Shown piece after piece: positions 11,440 to 21,659 of a stretch of 64,000 nucleotides of DNA (positions are counted from its first letter, which is position 1; the number at the start of each line of letters is the position of its first letter). The stretch comes from an uncultured Coriobacteriaceae bacterium (GTDB taxonomy: Bacteria; Actinomycetota; Coriobacteriia; Coriobacteriales; Atopobiaceae): the NCBI GenBank assembly GCA_902790135.1, contig CADAQM010000007.1, positions 1 through 64,000 of the forward strand, given 5' to 3'. The notes beneath the pieces are model-generated. The model was not told where the DNA came from. It worked only from the letters and a program-made list of their open reading frames with translations, and made no database searches. The translations under genes and the position numbers were made by a program.

Positions 11440-11835
11440 GGCAGATGATCGGTTCGGCACTTCGTCATACCTGCGGCATGCGAAGAATCTCAAAATCATC
11501 GAACAAATGTACTTATTAACGTGATACACTAAAGCTGCTTGGAGGGAGCGGTTGTCGATACGTGTCCACGTCCGGTCCGGACCGTGTACCCTCATACGCA
11601 GAAACCCGCGGCTATACGGGGTTTCCGGCTGACTCACCTGCGGGTTCGTTCCGCGGAGCCGGGGCTTTCATTCCGTGGCGGGCGTTCTCGAGCGAATACA
11701 TGCACCACCCGTATTCGTCCCCCAGAGGATGCCCATGCACGCTGCCGCGCGCTCACCGCCCATAGCCATTCCAGTCATGGTCGCCCTGTCGACCATGACT
11801 CCCATCGCTTCACTCGCGTACAGAGAGGACTTGGA
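11440..11835. other. 396-base leader region upstream of Rpn-type gene
   Basis: I see no gene here that I would defend. A -10-like TACACT near 11525 follows an AT-rich stretch and could be a promoter. Two short dyads follow: GTCCGGAC-type around 11568-11583 and GAAACCC/GGGTTTC around 11600-11625. The long upstream in-frame extension of the Rpn gene through this region lacks conserved residues. Confidence 0.4.
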
Positions 11836-12780
11836 ATGGCTGACAACACCGTTTTCGACTCCGTCTTCAAGACGATGGTCCATAAGACACCCAAGCTCGT
11901 CATCCCCCTCATTAACGAGGTGTTCGGCAGAAGCTACGCTCACGACGAGCGGGTTGTGCACTTTAGTAACGAGCATGAGACGCCCCGTGGCAGCAAGATT
12001 GACGACACGGTGTTTCGCCTTGGGGACAAGATCTATCACATTGAGTGCCAGAGTACGCCCGACACGGATATGGTCGTGCGCATGATCGAATACGACTTCA
12101 GCATTGCGCTCGAGCGTGCCCTGAGCGGAGGCGCTCCCTATCGGATGGAGTTTCCCGCATCATGCGTCTTGTTCCTGCGTCACAACGAGAGAACCCCGGA
12201 TGTCCTGCAGATGGAAGTGAAGCTGCCCGACGGCAACTCGTTTGAGTACCGCGTCAGGGTGATGAAGGCACAGCTGATCGGTGAGGATGAGATTTTTTCC
12301 AAGCAGCTGTTCTTGCTCCTTCCGTACTATCTCATGCGCTACGAGAAGGCTCTGTCCCAGATCGCCAATGACGACAATCGCACGGCGTACCTGCTGGCTG
12401 AGTGTCTCGACCTGCGCATGCGCCTCGCCGAGGCAACGATCGGCCAAGGCGAGGTCATACTGTTTGAGGAGATCATCGAGCTTATAATCAGGGTGTCAGA
12501 CCATATCACGGCAGCTTACGAGACGCTGCAAAAGAAGGTGAGGGCTGTCATGGGCGGCGAGGTTCTTGAGTTGTGGGCTGATAGAGTCGAACGTGTCGAA
12601 CGCGAAGCACGTGAGGCTCGTGAGCAGGGTCTCGAGCAGGGCCTCGAGCAGGGCCTCGAGCAGGGTCTCGAGCAGGGCATAAACGAGCTCTCGCAGAAGC
12701 TTCTCGAGCTTGGTGTCAGCGAAGAGCTCATCGCGCAGGCTGTCGCACAGGTGCGTGGGGAGGAGAAGGCCATCCTGTAG
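11836..12780 (+). CDS. Rpn-family PD-(D/E)XK nuclease/putative transposase
   Basis: A 314-aa protein of the recombination-promoting nuclease family. It opens with DSVFKTMVHKTPKLVIPLINEVF. The nuclease core follows, with DDTVFRLGDKIYHIECQS carrying the D...ExQ catalytic pattern. A second region FLLLPYYLMRYEKAL is also typical. The C-terminal tail carries five EQGL repeats, as is common in this family. Members are ubiquitous in anaerobes and promote RecA-independent recombination. The start MADNTVFD follows GAGAGG; the frame is open further upstream but without homology. No terminal inverted repeats or target duplications were seen, so I do not call a mobile element. Confidence 0.85.
   Translation: MADNTVFDSVFKTMVHKTPKLVIPLINEVFGRSYAHDERVVHFSNEHETPRGSKIDDTVFRLGDKIYHIECQSTPDTDMVVRMIEYDFSIALERALSGGAPYRMEFPASCVLFLRHNERTPDVLQMEVKLPDGNSFEYRVRVMKAQLIGEDEIFSKQLFLLLPYYLMRYEKALSQIANDDNRTAYLLAECLDLRMRLAEATIGQGEVILFEEIIELIIRVSDHITAAYETLQKKVRAVMGGEVLELWADRVERVEREAREAREQGLEQGLEQGLEQGLEQGINELSQKLLELGVSEELIAQAVAQVRGEEKAIL
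12622..12679 (+). repeat. Five 12-bp in-frame repeats (EQGL)
   Basis: GAGCAGGG starts at 12622, 12634, 12646, 12658 and 12670, encoding EQGL repeats in the Rpn-type protein. Units are nearly identical at the DNA level, so copy number is likely to vary by slippage. Confidence 0.9.
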
Positions 12781-16582: not shown

Positions 16583-16659
16583 AAAAGTGTGCACAACAAA
16601 GCGGCTATTCGGAGCCTTCCTGGAAGAGTCCGAATAGCCGCGTTCACGTGCGCACTTTT
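16583..16659. terminator. Long bidirectional terminator hairpin
   Basis: An outer stem (16583-16594 with 16648-16659, AAAAGTGTGCAC) encloses an inner 13-bp stem (16601-16613 with 16629-16641, GCGGCTATTCGGA). T-runs are present on both strands, so it can end transcription of yitT and of the convergent lipoprotein. Confidence 0.8.
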
Positions 16660-16699
16660 CTAGGACATGCGGGCGACTCCCGTGGTCCCGGGCGCTTGG

Positions 16700-17434
16700 T
16701 TAGTTGTTGATGTAGGAGAGCAGGTCGAAGGTCTGGACGCTGGTGAACTCGGAGTTGCCGTCGAGATCGCAGTAGACCTCGGCCACGTAGAGCTGCGCCA
16801 CCGGGTTGGCAGTGGTGGGCTCTCCGGCGCAAAGCACGAGGTAGTTGGTTCCAGCGACGACCTGCGTTCCGAGCGTCGCCAGGGGCTTGAGGCTTACGCC
16901 CACATACGCCTCGGTCGCCTTGGTGAAGGCCTCGGCAGCATCGGCGGGTAGAAGCTCGGTGGCTTCGGGCATCACGACGGCCCAGGCGCCGGCGGCCTCG
17001 CCATCGGCGGTCTCGTCGGTGACGTGCACGTCAGCAAGGTCGATCTGCTCGGCCGAGGTCAGCTCCGCCTCGCCAGAGAGATTTTCGTAGACGACCAGCA
17101 GGTACCATCCAGTCGTTCCCTGAGCGTCTGCGACCTCGCCCTTGCAGAGGAAGGCGTAGTTGGTACCCGCCACCACCTGCGTGGCCAGTGTGGAGACGGG
17201 AGTGTAGGTGACCCCGACGAGCTCCTTGGTGGCGGCTGCGAAGACCTCCTGCTCATGATCGGTGAGGGTGGAGGTTGGCGCTTCGTCAGAGGCCGTGTAG
17301 CCACCGACGACCTCGGTCGCCTCGGGACTGGCTTCCGACGGAGTGTCTTCCGCAACTGGCTTGGCGCCGCATCCGATGAGGGACAGGGAGAGTGCGAGTG
17401 CTCCGGTTGTTGCAAGTGCCGCGATCCTCTTCAT
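16700..17434 (-). CDS. Lipoprotein with two cystatin-like domains
   Basis: A 244-aa predicted lipoprotein: the signal peptide ends in LIGC with Cys22. Two similar domains follow, about 55-130 and 163-240. Each has a helix, then TQVVAGTNY or GTQVVAGTNY, then a VVYENLSGEAEL or EVYCDLDGNSEF hairpin region. QVVAG (86-90 and 191-195) is the protease-binding loop of cystatins/stefins. A VVGG element (42-45) precedes domain 1, like the LVGG trunk of cystatins. This suggests a surface-anchored cysteine-protease inhibitor, a rare fold in bacteria. The duplication and motifs are seen directly; inhibition is inference. Start follows GAGGAAGG. Confidence 0.8.
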   Translation of the reverse strand: MKRIAALATTGALALSLSLIGCGAKPVAEDTPSEASPEATEVVGGYTASDEAPTSTLTDHEQEVFAAATKELVGVTYTPVSTLATQVVAGTNYAFLCKGEVADAQGTTGWYLLVVYENLSGEAELTSAEQIDLADVHVTDETADGEAAGAWAVVMPEATELLPADAAEAFTKATEAYVGVSLKPLATLGTQVVAGTNYLVLCAGEPTTANPVAQLYVAEVYCDLDGNSEFTSVQTFDLLSYINN

Positions 17435-17677: not shown

Positions 17678-18904
17678 ATGAAGCTCTCTGGTAGGCACCT
17701 GCTGGTGGTCGTGGCCATGTGTGGCCTGTTGGCGTCGGGCGTTGGCCTGGTGACCAACGTTGCGGGACTGTTCTTCACCCCGGTCTCGGAGGAGTTTGGG
17801 GTCCTGCGCGGACAGGTGAGCCTCATGCTCACCATCACCAACATCTCGTTCGCCTTCGGTGGCATGATCGCCCCGCGCCTGCTCACCGAGAAGACCCTGA
17901 AACCGCTGCTCATTGGCGCGACGGCTGTTAATGCGGCTGCGACGGTGGGCTTCTCGTTCTGCCAGGGCGTCATGCCCATGTACGCGCTCTGCGTCGTGCG
18001 CGGCCTGGTTGCCGGCATGATCGGCTTCGTGTTCGTCACCTCGGTCATCAACCGCTGGTTCGTGACCAACGTCGCCCTTGCGTCGAGCATCGCCATGGCT
18101 TGCAGCGGTCTTGCGGGTGCGCTCTTCTCGCCGATCATCAACGGCATCATCGGTGGCGTGGGCTGGCGCATGGGATACGTCGCCATTGCCGCCTTCACCG
18201 TGCTGCTCAACCTGCCCGCCATCCTGCTGCTGCCCTCGCTCGACCCCGCAACGGCCGGTCTCGAGGCGCTCGGTGCGGGTACCGTCGCAAGTGAATCCAA
18301 GGCAAAGGCAGAGACGGGCTCCGCGGTCTCCGCCGCTCCGGTGAGCATGGTCATCCTTGGCGCGGTCATCGGCTACGCGGTTCTCGCCACTGCGGTGACT
18401 GCCATACCGCAGTTCTTCCCTGGCATGGCAGAGAGCTACGGCTTTGGCGCGGCGCTGGGAGCCTCGATGCTGTCCGCCTCCATGGTGGCCAATAGCCTGG
18501 GCAAGATCGTGCTCGGTGCGCTCATCGACCGTCTGGGTACCCGCATCTCCACGCTGATCTATGCCGCAGTCGTTGCCGCGTCGCTGGTCATGCTGCTGAT
18601 CATTCGCAGCCCCCAGATGCTCATCGTGGCAGCGGCCCTGTGCGGTCTGTGCTACTCGCTGGGCACCGTGGCCATTACCATGATCACGCGCGACGCCTTT
18701 GGAGTTGCCAACTACGACAAGACCTATCCCACCATCAGCCTGGCGGGCAACTTCGCCAACGCCATCTTCTCGTCCGTGGTCGGCTTCATGTATGACTTCT
18801 CCGGTGGCTACGTGCTGCCCATCATCGTGCTGCTGGTCTGCCTGGGAGCCGCTGTCGCATCCATGCTGTATGTGTATACGCATCGTTTGGAGACTGTAGC
18901 GTAG
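17678..18904 (+). CDS. Major facilitator superfamily transporter
   Basis: A 408-aa inner-membrane transporter with 12 predicted helices split by a hydrophilic loop near 195-215 (GAGTVASESKAKAETGS). NRWF in the first half and DRLGTRIST in the second half match the oxalate/formate-antiporter-like group of MFS. It opens the catabolic stretch, directly before a PucR regulator and the LigM-like demethylase. A role in uptake of a methoxylated or carboxylated substrate is therefore plausible but inferred. ATG at 17678 follows a GGGGGGG run. Confidence 0.85.
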   Translation: MKLSGRHLLVVVAMCGLLASGVGLVTNVAGLFFTPVSEEFGVLRGQVSLMLTITNISFAFGGMIAPRLLTEKTLKPLLIGATAVNAAATVGFSFCQGVMPMYALCVVRGLVAGMIGFVFVTSVINRWFVTNVALASSIAMACSGLAGALFSPIINGIIGGVGWRMGYVAIAAFTVLLNLPAILLLPSLDPATAGLEALGAGTVASESKAKAETGSAVSAAPVSMVILGAVIGYAVLATAVTAIPQFFPGMAESYGFGAALGASMLSASMVANSLGKIVLGALIDRLGTRISTLIYAAVVAASLVMLLIIRSPQMLIVAAALCGLCYSLGTVAITMITRDAFGVANYDKTYPTISLAGNFANAIFSSVVGFMYDFSGGYVLPIIVLLVCLGAAVASMLYVYTHRLETVA

Positions 18905-18992
18905 GGTCCCTGCAACACTCCGAAAGCCCCTCCGTCCAAGTGTCCCATTGATGTGATAAGTTCACAGGGGAAGGTCGAAGAACGGGGGCAGC

Positions 18993-20210
18993 ATGGAGTT
19001 CAGGCAGGGCAAGGCGCGCATCATGGATGCGCTGCTCGATCATGGCGGCCTGCAGCATCTGGTGGATGTCGGCGCTGAGGTCATCGGCAACCCCGTGTTC
19101 GTCTGCGACCTTGCGGCACGGGTCATGGCGATGAGCCATGCGACAGAGGAGGACCGTGCCTTTTGGGACGAGTTCTTTCCCGGGGGAAGAATGGACCCCG
19201 ACAACGCGGCGGACGTCGGGCGCGCGGGTATCTACGAGCGCGTTTTCTCGAACGACACCCCCGTCGTGGGCAAGTTCGACTTCTACCCGGGCCGCTTTGT
19301 GGGTGCCCGCATTCGCCTTCGGAACGATGTCGTCGGCATGGCAACGCTCGTAGAGCGCGAGCCGCTCGGCGAGTGCGACGGGGACTTGCTCGTCGTCCTC
19401 TGCCAGGCCATCGTGCTGGAGATGACCTGGCAGGACATGCAGGTGAGGAGCTCGTCAGCCCTCCTTGACGTGGTGACCGCAGCCATCGAGGGGACGGCAT
19501 CGGGAGAAGAGCTGGACCTCATGACTCACGGCGACCGCCTGGGGCTTCCCTCGCGCAGCCGTGTGCTGGTCATCGCTCTCGAGTCGGGCCACTCGGGGGT
19601 CGTGTTCTCGTTCTCGCAGGGTCTTCTGGCCCGGCGTTTTCCCACATCTCCCACCATCGTGCGCCATGGCCGACTGGTCATGCTCCTTGACCTGAGCAGA
19701 TACGAGGAGGTTCCGCTCCGCGACCTAGAGGCATGCCTCGCGAACCTTCCCCTGCGCGTGGGGGTGGGTGGCGCCTTCGACTCGATAGGGGGCATCAAGG
19801 AGTCCTACCGTCAGGCGCGTGCCGCCATGGTTCTCTCGCAGCGTGCGGGACTGCCTGCGGGTCTGGCGAACTATGACGACTGGCGTCTGGACGACTTGCT
19901 GATGCAGGTGGCGGAGCTGACGGATCTCTCGCACTACATCGACCCGGTGACGGAGCGCATGGCAGGGCACGACCGACGTGAGGGGACCCAGCTCATAAAG
20001 ACCGTCGATGCCTATCTCCGCTGTGCCAACAACGCACAGGCGGCCGCACGGCTTCTGGGCATTCACAAGAACACGATGTACGCGCGTCTCGAGCGGATCC
20101 AGCAGCTCTTTGACGTGGACCTGGAGAGCGGGGAGACCTGCCAGTCGCTGGCACTGTCCCTGCGCATGCGCCGCGTGCTCGCCTGGCGAGGCGACCCTGT
20201 GACAAAGTAA
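18993..20210 (+). CDS. PucR/CdaR-type transcriptional regulator
   Basis: A 405-aa regulator. The C-terminal PucR helix-turn-helix is clear: LIKTVDAYLRCANNAQAAARLLGIHKNTMYARLERIQQLF. A GGDEF-like CdaR middle region precedes it (RLGLPSRSRVLVIALES through LPLRVGVGGAFDSIGGIKESYRQARAAM). The N-terminal 150 residues form a ligand-sensing domain. It lies between the MFS gene and the LigM-like demethylase on the same strand, so it probably controls that demethylase or transporter in response to substrate. ATG follows AACGGGGGCAGC. Confidence 0.85.
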   Translation: MEFRQGKARIMDALLDHGGLQHLVDVGAEVIGNPVFVCDLAARVMAMSHATEEDRAFWDEFFPGGRMDPDNAADVGRAGIYERVFSNDTPVVGKFDFYPGRFVGARIRLRNDVVGMATLVEREPLGECDGDLLVVLCQAIVLEMTWQDMQVRSSSALLDVVTAAIEGTASGEELDLMTHGDRLGLPSRSRVLVIALESGHSGVVFSFSQGLLARRFPTSPTIVRHGRLVMLLDLSRYEEVPLRDLEACLANLPLRVGVGGAFDSIGGIKESYRQARAAMVLSQRAGLPAGLANYDDWRLDDLLMQVAELTDLSHYIDPVTERMAGHDRREGTQLIKTVDAYLRCANNAQAAARLLGIHKNTMYARLERIQQLFDVDLESGETCQSLALSLRMRRVLAWRGDPVTK

Positions 20211-20243
20211 CAGTCCAAGAGGTTCTTCCCATACCGCAGCCCG

Positions 20244-20272
20244 ATGACGGGGCTTTTGCAAGGCCCCATCAT
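20244..20272 (+). promoter_or_regulatory. Leader hairpin before the LigM-like gene
   Basis: ATGACGGGGC (20244-20253) can pair with GCCCCATCAT (20263-20272) with one mismatch. It sits between the regulator stop and the demethylase ribosome site. It could be a weak terminator of the regulator gene or an attenuator for the demethylase. Confidence 0.4.
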
Positions 20273-20324
20273 GTGAGGCGTAAGCAGGAGCGTCGCCATG
20301 ACGTCATCGCACAAGGAGGAACCC

Positions 20325-21659
20325 ATGTCTGCACCGGAGTTCAAGCCCAGCCCCTTCGCACAGAACCTCATCCCGCGCAACACCACGTTCACCAGCCACG
20401 AGGGCGTCTTCACCCCGATGGCCGACGACGGACGCTTCCCCATCCAGCCCTTCTCCTACAGCGGCTGGCTCGACGAGGAGCTCTCGTGGTACGACACCTG
20501 CTACGTGCATGGCGGCCTCAACCCCGCGATGAACTACCTCATCAAGGGCACCGAGTACCTGGACTTCCTGACCGCCGCGAGCGTCAATACCTTCAAGAAG
20601 TACCCGGTGGGCAAGGCGCGCCACGTCATCATCTGCCAGCCCAACGGCAAGATCATGAACGACGGCATCGTCATGCGCCTGGCCGAGGACACCTTCTACT
20701 CCATGTTCCTGCCCGACCCGGCCATGCTCAACCACATCTTCTTCCAGGACAGGTTCAACTTTGAGGTCGAGGACTGCACCGAGAGCCACTTCTTCTACCA
20801 GATGTGCGGACCGCGCTCGCTCGAGGTCGTGGAGCAGGCGACCAAGACCGACCTGCACGACCTGGGATTCATGTGGCTTCAGCAGGGCCTCAAGATCGCC
20901 GGCCACGAGGTCTTCGTGCTGCGCACCGGCATGGCGGGCACGCTGGGCTACGAGATCCACGGCCTCACCAAGGACTGCCAGGAGGTGCTGGCCGAGGTCC
21001 TGCGCGTGGGCGAGCCCTACGGCATCCGCCAGCTCGGCAAGCTGCCCTACGTGACCTGCCATTGCGAGGGCTCCATCCCGCAGGGCACCGAGCACTACGC
21101 GTTCCCCATCCCGGGCTTCGAGTGGAACATCGCCGGCTCCCTGCCTGCCGACAGCGACCTCGTCTACCGCACGCCCATGGAGAACGGCTGGCAGAAGATG
21201 GTGCGCATGGACCACGACTTCATCGGCAAGGAGGCCATCGAGGCCGAGCTGGCGGGCAACTACAAGACCGCTTGCACCCTCATCTGGGATGTGGACAGCG
21301 TGGCCGAGGCCGTCAAGGCGTCCATGGACGGCACCCGTCGCGTCGACCCCATCGAGTTCCCCTGCGACTACGACTACGTGCTGGGCAATGGCACCCTGCA
21401 CATCGACGAGGTCTACGACGGCGACACCTTTGTGGGATGCTCCTCTGGCCGTATGTTCTCCAGCAAGACGCGTCAGATGATCTCCATCGGCACCATCTAC
21501 CACGGCCTTGTCGAAGAGGGCAGGGAGCTCGAGATCCTTTGGGGCAACAAGGGCACCGACCAGGTGCGCATCAAGTGCCGCGTGAGCCTGTTCCCCTATA
21601 TCAAGGAAGGCCGCAACGAGAGCTTTGACACCGAGACCATTCCGCATCCCGTGTTCTAG
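20325..21659 (+). CDS. LigM/DesA-like THF-dependent O-demethylase (GcvT fold)
   Basis: A 444-aa GcvT-fold enzyme. Length and several blocks match Sphingobium vanillate/syringate O-demethylases LigM and DesA, which move an aryl methyl group to tetrahydrofolate. RTGMAGTLGYEIHG (about 201-213) parallels the RHGMAGAPGLEIWG block. PMENGWQKMVRMDHDFIGKEAIE (about 285-306) parallels the DHDFIGRDAL block. The C-terminal SIGTIYHGLVEEGRELEILWG also matches. The usual glycine-cleavage partners (GcvP, GcvH, Lpd) are absent nearby, arguing against glycine decarboxylation. The substrate is not known. ATG at 20325 has AAGGAGG at ideal distance; an upstream ATG at 20298 is possible. Confidence 0.8.
   Translation: MSAPEFKPSPFAQNLIPRNTTFTSHEGVFTPMADDGRFPIQPFSYSGWLDEELSWYDTCYVHGGLNPAMNYLIKGTEYLDFLTAASVNTFKKYPVGKARHVIICQPNGKIMNDGIVMRLAEDTFYSMFLPDPAMLNHIFFQDRFNFEVEDCTESHFFYQMCGPRSLEVVEQATKTDLHDLGFMWLQQGLKIAGHEVFVLRTGMAGTLGYEIHGLTKDCQEVLAEVLRVGEPYGIRQLGKLPYVTCHCEGSIPQGTEHYAFPIPGFEWNIAGSLPADSDLVYRTPMENGWQKMVRMDHDFIGKEAIEAELAGNYKTACTLIWDVDSVAEAVKASMDGTRRVDPIEFPCDYDYVLGNGTLHIDEVYDGDTFVGCSSGRMFSSKTRQMISIGTIYHGLVEEGRELEILWGNKGTDQVRIKCRVSLFPYIKEGRNESFDTETIPHPVF

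Follow-up and report, generated by a model that had tools for sequence, protein, structure and literature searches.

Gene and protein at the locus

The window, by which we mean the whole stretch of 64,000 nucleotides that was analysed, carries on its minus strand a complete open reading frame at 16700-17434, encoding a tandem-cystatin lipoprotein of 244 amino acids. It begins with ATG at 17434, ends with a stop codon at 16702-16700, and has a Shine-Dalgarno-like AGGAAGG just upstream of its start on inspection of the sequence. All the parts of the protein described here accordingly lie on the minus strand. Residues 1-22 (17369-17434) are a lipoprotein signal peptide that closes with the lipobox LIGC at 19-22, and its sequence predicts lipidation at Cys22; the surface anchoring foreseen in an earlier note on this DNA is thus borne out at the level of prediction. 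A low-complexity linker, residues 23-39 (17318-17368), follows and is predicted to be disordered, with pLDDT below 50 for residues 1-44. The remainder consists of cystatin domain 1 (residues 40-134; 17033-17317) and cystatin domain 2 (residues 145-239; 16718-17002). The earlier note described the two as similar tandem domains, and indeed they are 41% identical without a gap over 93 residues (E=7e-20 for the pair).

Each domain carries the sequence elements that are expected of a cystatin. The two QVVAG motifs, which the same note had placed at residues 86-90 and 191-195, are there (17165-17179 and 16850-16864) and represent the first inhibitory loop, L1, of each domain. The VVGG trunk said to precede the first of them lies at residues 42-45, with V43-G44-G45 (17300-17308) as the N-terminal trunk of domain 1. 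A trunk had been assigned to the first domain only, and this part needs extension since domain 2 also has one, in AAGAW at 147-151 (A148-G149-A150; 16985-16993). Domain 1 further has a putative stefin-like second loop, L2, at L119-S-G121 (17072-17080).

Several other features of the window may be recorded. A strong inverted repeat at 16594-16665, GCGGCTATTCGGA...TCCGAATAGCCGC, separates the cystatin gene from a convergent YitT gene; TTTTCT lies beyond it on the plus strand, and the repeat is probably a terminator. Genes for an MFS transporter (17678-18904), a PucR-type regulator (18993-20210) and a GCV_T-type aminomethyltransferase/demethylase (20298-21659) are consecutive, and 17678-21659 has the look of a locus by which a methylated compound is taken up and demethylated. 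An open reading frame at 11539-12780 has no Pfam match at E<=0.001 and carries EQGLEQGLEQGLEQGLEQG repeats in its tail; we take it to resemble the Rpn-type transposase-like nucleases.

Relationship to cystatins

How firmly can such a protein be called a cystatin? Curated cut-offs are reached neither in Pfam nor in NCBIfam, the latter giving nothing relevant for this protein. Its best Pfam match is SQAPI (PF16845; E=9.6e-5, 23.1 bits, under the cut-off of 31), which is a cystatin-derived family, and Cystatin itself (PF00031) scores 14.9 bits against a cut-off of 22.2. A search of the PDB by phmmer with the single sequence returned no matches, and therefore profiles are needed. When a profile built on 34 domains of related proteins was compared with the PDB, 17 chains were matched at E-values from 7e-4 to 0.17, all of them cystatins, stefins or cystatin-like inhibitors; a chain from outside this group first appeared at E=0.82. 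Alignment by hhalign placed VYENLSGEAE of domain 1 on VFKSLPGQNE of stefin A, a comparison that is supporting only, as the sequences of its five reference cystatins are approximate. The Pro-Trp of the type 2 cystatin L2 is absent, L-x-G being found there instead, and the window protein has no cysteine pairs matching the type 2 disulphides.

Predicted structures agree with the profiles. The AlphaFold model of domain 1, built with 13 related domains, has a pLDDT of 85.5 and contains a helix (20-30) and four strands (36-49, 51-62, 69-78 and 84-92), the first hairpin holding QVVAG at 47-51 (model numbering). The order of elements is helix-beta2-beta3-beta4-beta5, QVVAG lies in the beta2-beta3 turn, and the models and the PDB fold search show the helix packed on an antiparallel sheet that characterizes the cystatin fold. 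Whether the fold is cystatin-like had been proposed as the check on the earlier reading, and the top six PDB hits of domain 1 all proved to be cystatins or stefins, from tick, fluke and rice, with a Foldseek probability of 1.00; their TM-scores are modest (0.47-0.62) and their E-values range from 2e-3 to 5e-2. The full-length model is of lower confidence (pLDDT 63) and has the same element order in both domains, QVVAG of domain 2 again lying in the beta2-beta3 turn. Its fold search gave a phytocystatin as the best match and then fetuin-B, and latexin was also returned.

Conservation and predicted surface anchoring

In cystatins, papain is contacted by the trunk Gly, the QxVxG motif and the second loop. 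Forty related open reading frames were recovered by a whole-protein profile in which the motif was no criterion, and in domain 1 of these Q86 is kept in 38/40, V88 in 38/40 and G90 in 39/40, while the corresponding counts in domain 2 are 36/38 for Q191, 34/38 for V193 and 36/38 for G195. The trunk residues G44 (37/38) and G149 (39/39) are also well kept, the residue preceding G44 being mostly hydrophobic or small, and G121 of L2 is found in 36 of 40. Altogether, the trunk Gly and QxVxG are 89-100% conserved and rank with the best-kept positions of each domain; because the relatives were collected without the motif, its presence is not due to chance. That exactly the inhibitory edge is conserved strongly implies an inhibitor function for the lipoprotein. 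W151 (39/40), N92 (38/40) and G226 (37/38), the L-x-G glycine of domain 2, are also strongly kept. The family has peculiarities as well: the second residue past the trunk Gly is a Trp, its place being taken by Tyr46 in domain 1 of the window protein, and the third strand, beta3, ends in a Cys in 33/40 relatives for domain 1 and in 32/37 for domain 2.

Cys22 is present in 34/38 relatives, and a lipobox of the pattern [LVI][ASTVI][GAS]C in 29 of the 36 inspected, most of the others being truncated or differently anchored. Three relatives (L014, L021 and L055) combine the lipobox with a twin-arginine-like signal. In place of a lipobox, one protein (L045:3032-4894) has five PASTA domains ahead of its two cystatin domains, and another (L046:2095-4530) has choline-binding wall repeats in the same position. 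Several kinds of tether on one domain pair point to a protein that would act at the cell surface.

Distribution and history

Within the bacterial family, 35 of 140 genomes carry the gene, in about six genera, a count that leaves out one partial match. In the order, 46 of 399 genomes match at E<=0.001, a few of them marginally, and among 397 genomes sampled evenly across the phylum only two are carriers, both from the same order. The relatives with names are MAGs of Coriobacteriales and Clostridia, the distribution in Clostridia being drawn from one search of named records. The closest record, RUG12252, is identical to the window protein except at one residue. Record titles of the relatives mention the omasum of sheep, the faeces of horses and two 'RUG' isolates, which we take to be rumen genomes; these few record names point to a gut bacterium, probably of the rumen, as the source.

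Gene neighbours differ between genera and none is conserved, so that the gene stands alone, and the neighbourhood was dropped as a clue to the target for the same reason. As for mobile carriers, there was no phage match, and plasmid matches numbered only three, all of them weak and none above 35% identity; both kinds of carriage were set aside. In the same order, one complete genome (L044) encodes a single-domain form of 93 amino acids with no signal peptide. In a tree of the domains, those of Coriobacteria mostly cluster by position, as domain 1 or domain 2, and thus the duplication seems older than the genera, the tree placing it in no clear order relative to the Clostridia copies.

Possible mechanism and target

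We consider it likely, at a probability of about 0.78, that the protein is a double-headed, tethered surface inhibitor of papain-family (C1) cysteine peptidases. The lipoprotein would be exported, lipidated and cleaved at Cys22, and thus anchored on the outer face of the membrane, from which about 20 disordered residues would lead to the two cystatin domains. In each domain the trunk Gly segment, the QVVAG hairpin and the stefin-like L-x-G loop would form a wedge that plugs the active-site cleft of a C1 peptidase as in known cystatins, and the two heads could hold two protease molecules in a kininogen-like manner.

Whose protease could it be? No Peptidase_C1 protein was detected in the genome of the window (96.6% complete) or in a near-identical relative (G132) that is 100% complete, while the same search matches proteins in 66 of 140 family members. 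Because the bacterium has no detectable C1 peptidase, its genome content suggests that the target is probably foreign. Candidates would be cathepsins of rumen ciliates, which engulf bacteria and whose cathepsins may be lysosomal or secreted, papain-like proteases of ingested plants, and cysteine peptidases of competitors; the sequence by itself does not discriminate between proteases of ciliates, plants, the animal host and competitors. The rumen ciliate Entodinium caudatum expresses C1A cathepsins, and several of its cysteine proteinases have signal peptides (PMC6925433). Cysteine peptidases have also been described as the major type of bacterial peptidase in the rumen (PMC6908469). Many genomes of the family, including L056 and L057, encode large proteins (500-1500 amino acids) with matches to the C1 peptidase, up to 11 matches per genome, and it is possible that these are natural targets between species. 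A bolder idea is that a surface multicystatin is widespread in gut bacteria, has been gained and passed between Coriobacteria and Clostridia and shields prey bacteria from lysosomal cathepsins of protozoa after engulfment; as a whole we regard it as doubtful.

The inhibitor might instead regulate cysteine peptidases that the bacterium itself displays or secretes, and so prevent self-damage, as 19 of the 35 carriers in the family encode C1-peptidase proteins, often large. This appears improbable to us, and an own C1 peptidase was rejected as the target, since such a protein was found neither in the window's genome nor in its near-identical complete relative, and C1 and cystatin carriage are not associated across the family (Fisher p=0.34). 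In addition, no C1 peptidase adjoins the gene in the window, and the genes around it change from one genus to the next.

The cystatin fold has repeatedly acquired other functions, as in SQAPI, latexin, fetuin and monellin. Could this one also have been co-opted, to inhibit another protease class (SQAPI-like, aspartic) or to bind a ligand or a host surface? SQAPI as the best Pfam match, fetuin-B and latexin in the fold search, and the extra conserved Trp and beta3 Cys would fit such a shift. However, a family that had lost C1 inhibition would not be expected to hold the papain-contacting residues among its most invariant positions, as is seen in both domains, and we give co-option little credence. 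The failure to pass any curated family cut-off could even suggest a chance motif in an unrelated lipoprotein, but this is refuted in practice by the internal duplication, the strict conservation, the cystatin fold and the profile matches to cystatins only. The tethered inhibitor of C1 peptidases is the reading that we prefer.

Comparison with known cystatins and meaning

Inhibitors of the cystatin type are familiar from animals and plants; to our knowledge they are rare and almost unstudied in bacteria. Bacterial stefins/cystatins, including a stefin of Eggerthella and proteins of some Clostridia, were first reported by Kordis and Turk (2009), who proposed defence against host proteolysis as their role (PMC2784779). 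Our literature search found no later characterisation of a cystatin from Coriobacteria and no characterised bacterial cystatin. The family of the window shares with the reported proteins the cystatin superfamily, the kept QxVxG and a patchy distribution, but differs in its two domains, its export as a lipoprotein and its extra conserved Trp after the trunk Gly, and it extends across several genera rather than single strains (PMC2784779). The single-domain protein of L044 is probably of the type reported for Eggerthella.

Among eukaryotic relatives, stefins (MEROPS I25A, stefin A/B) resemble the window protein in the QVVAGTNY loop, in having no type 2 disulphides and probably in L2, where the window family has L-S-G or L-D-G and stefin A has L-P-G. 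They are, however, single-domain and mostly cytoplasmic proteins, in contrast to two domains behind a lipoprotein signal peptide, and sequence similarity is low and largely limited to the loops. Type 2 cystatins (I25B) differ by two disulphides and a Pro-Trp loop. The best fold and profile matches are secreted cystatins of ticks and helminths (sialostatin L2 and the Fasciola type 1 cystatin, 6i1m), which inhibit cathepsins of another organism, although they are soluble, single-domain and eukaryotic, with 21-26% identity. Kininogens and plant multicystatins likewise have tandem cystatin domains and can in principle bind several proteases at once, but are neither bacterial nor lipid-anchored, and have other domain numbers and disulphides. 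SQAPI inhibits aspartic proteases, whereas the C1-directed loop is kept intact in the window family. What is new here, as judged from the sequences, is a divergent clade of tandem, exported and predicted surface-anchored cystatins that lies below every Pfam and NCBIfam cut-off.

The family offers a clean and conserved example of a surface-anchored bacterial cystatin with two putative inhibitory heads, found in many gut species. With it one can test whether predators, plant material or competitors are what gut bacteria direct cystatins at, a question that bears on how protein is turned over and ammonia produced in the rumen.
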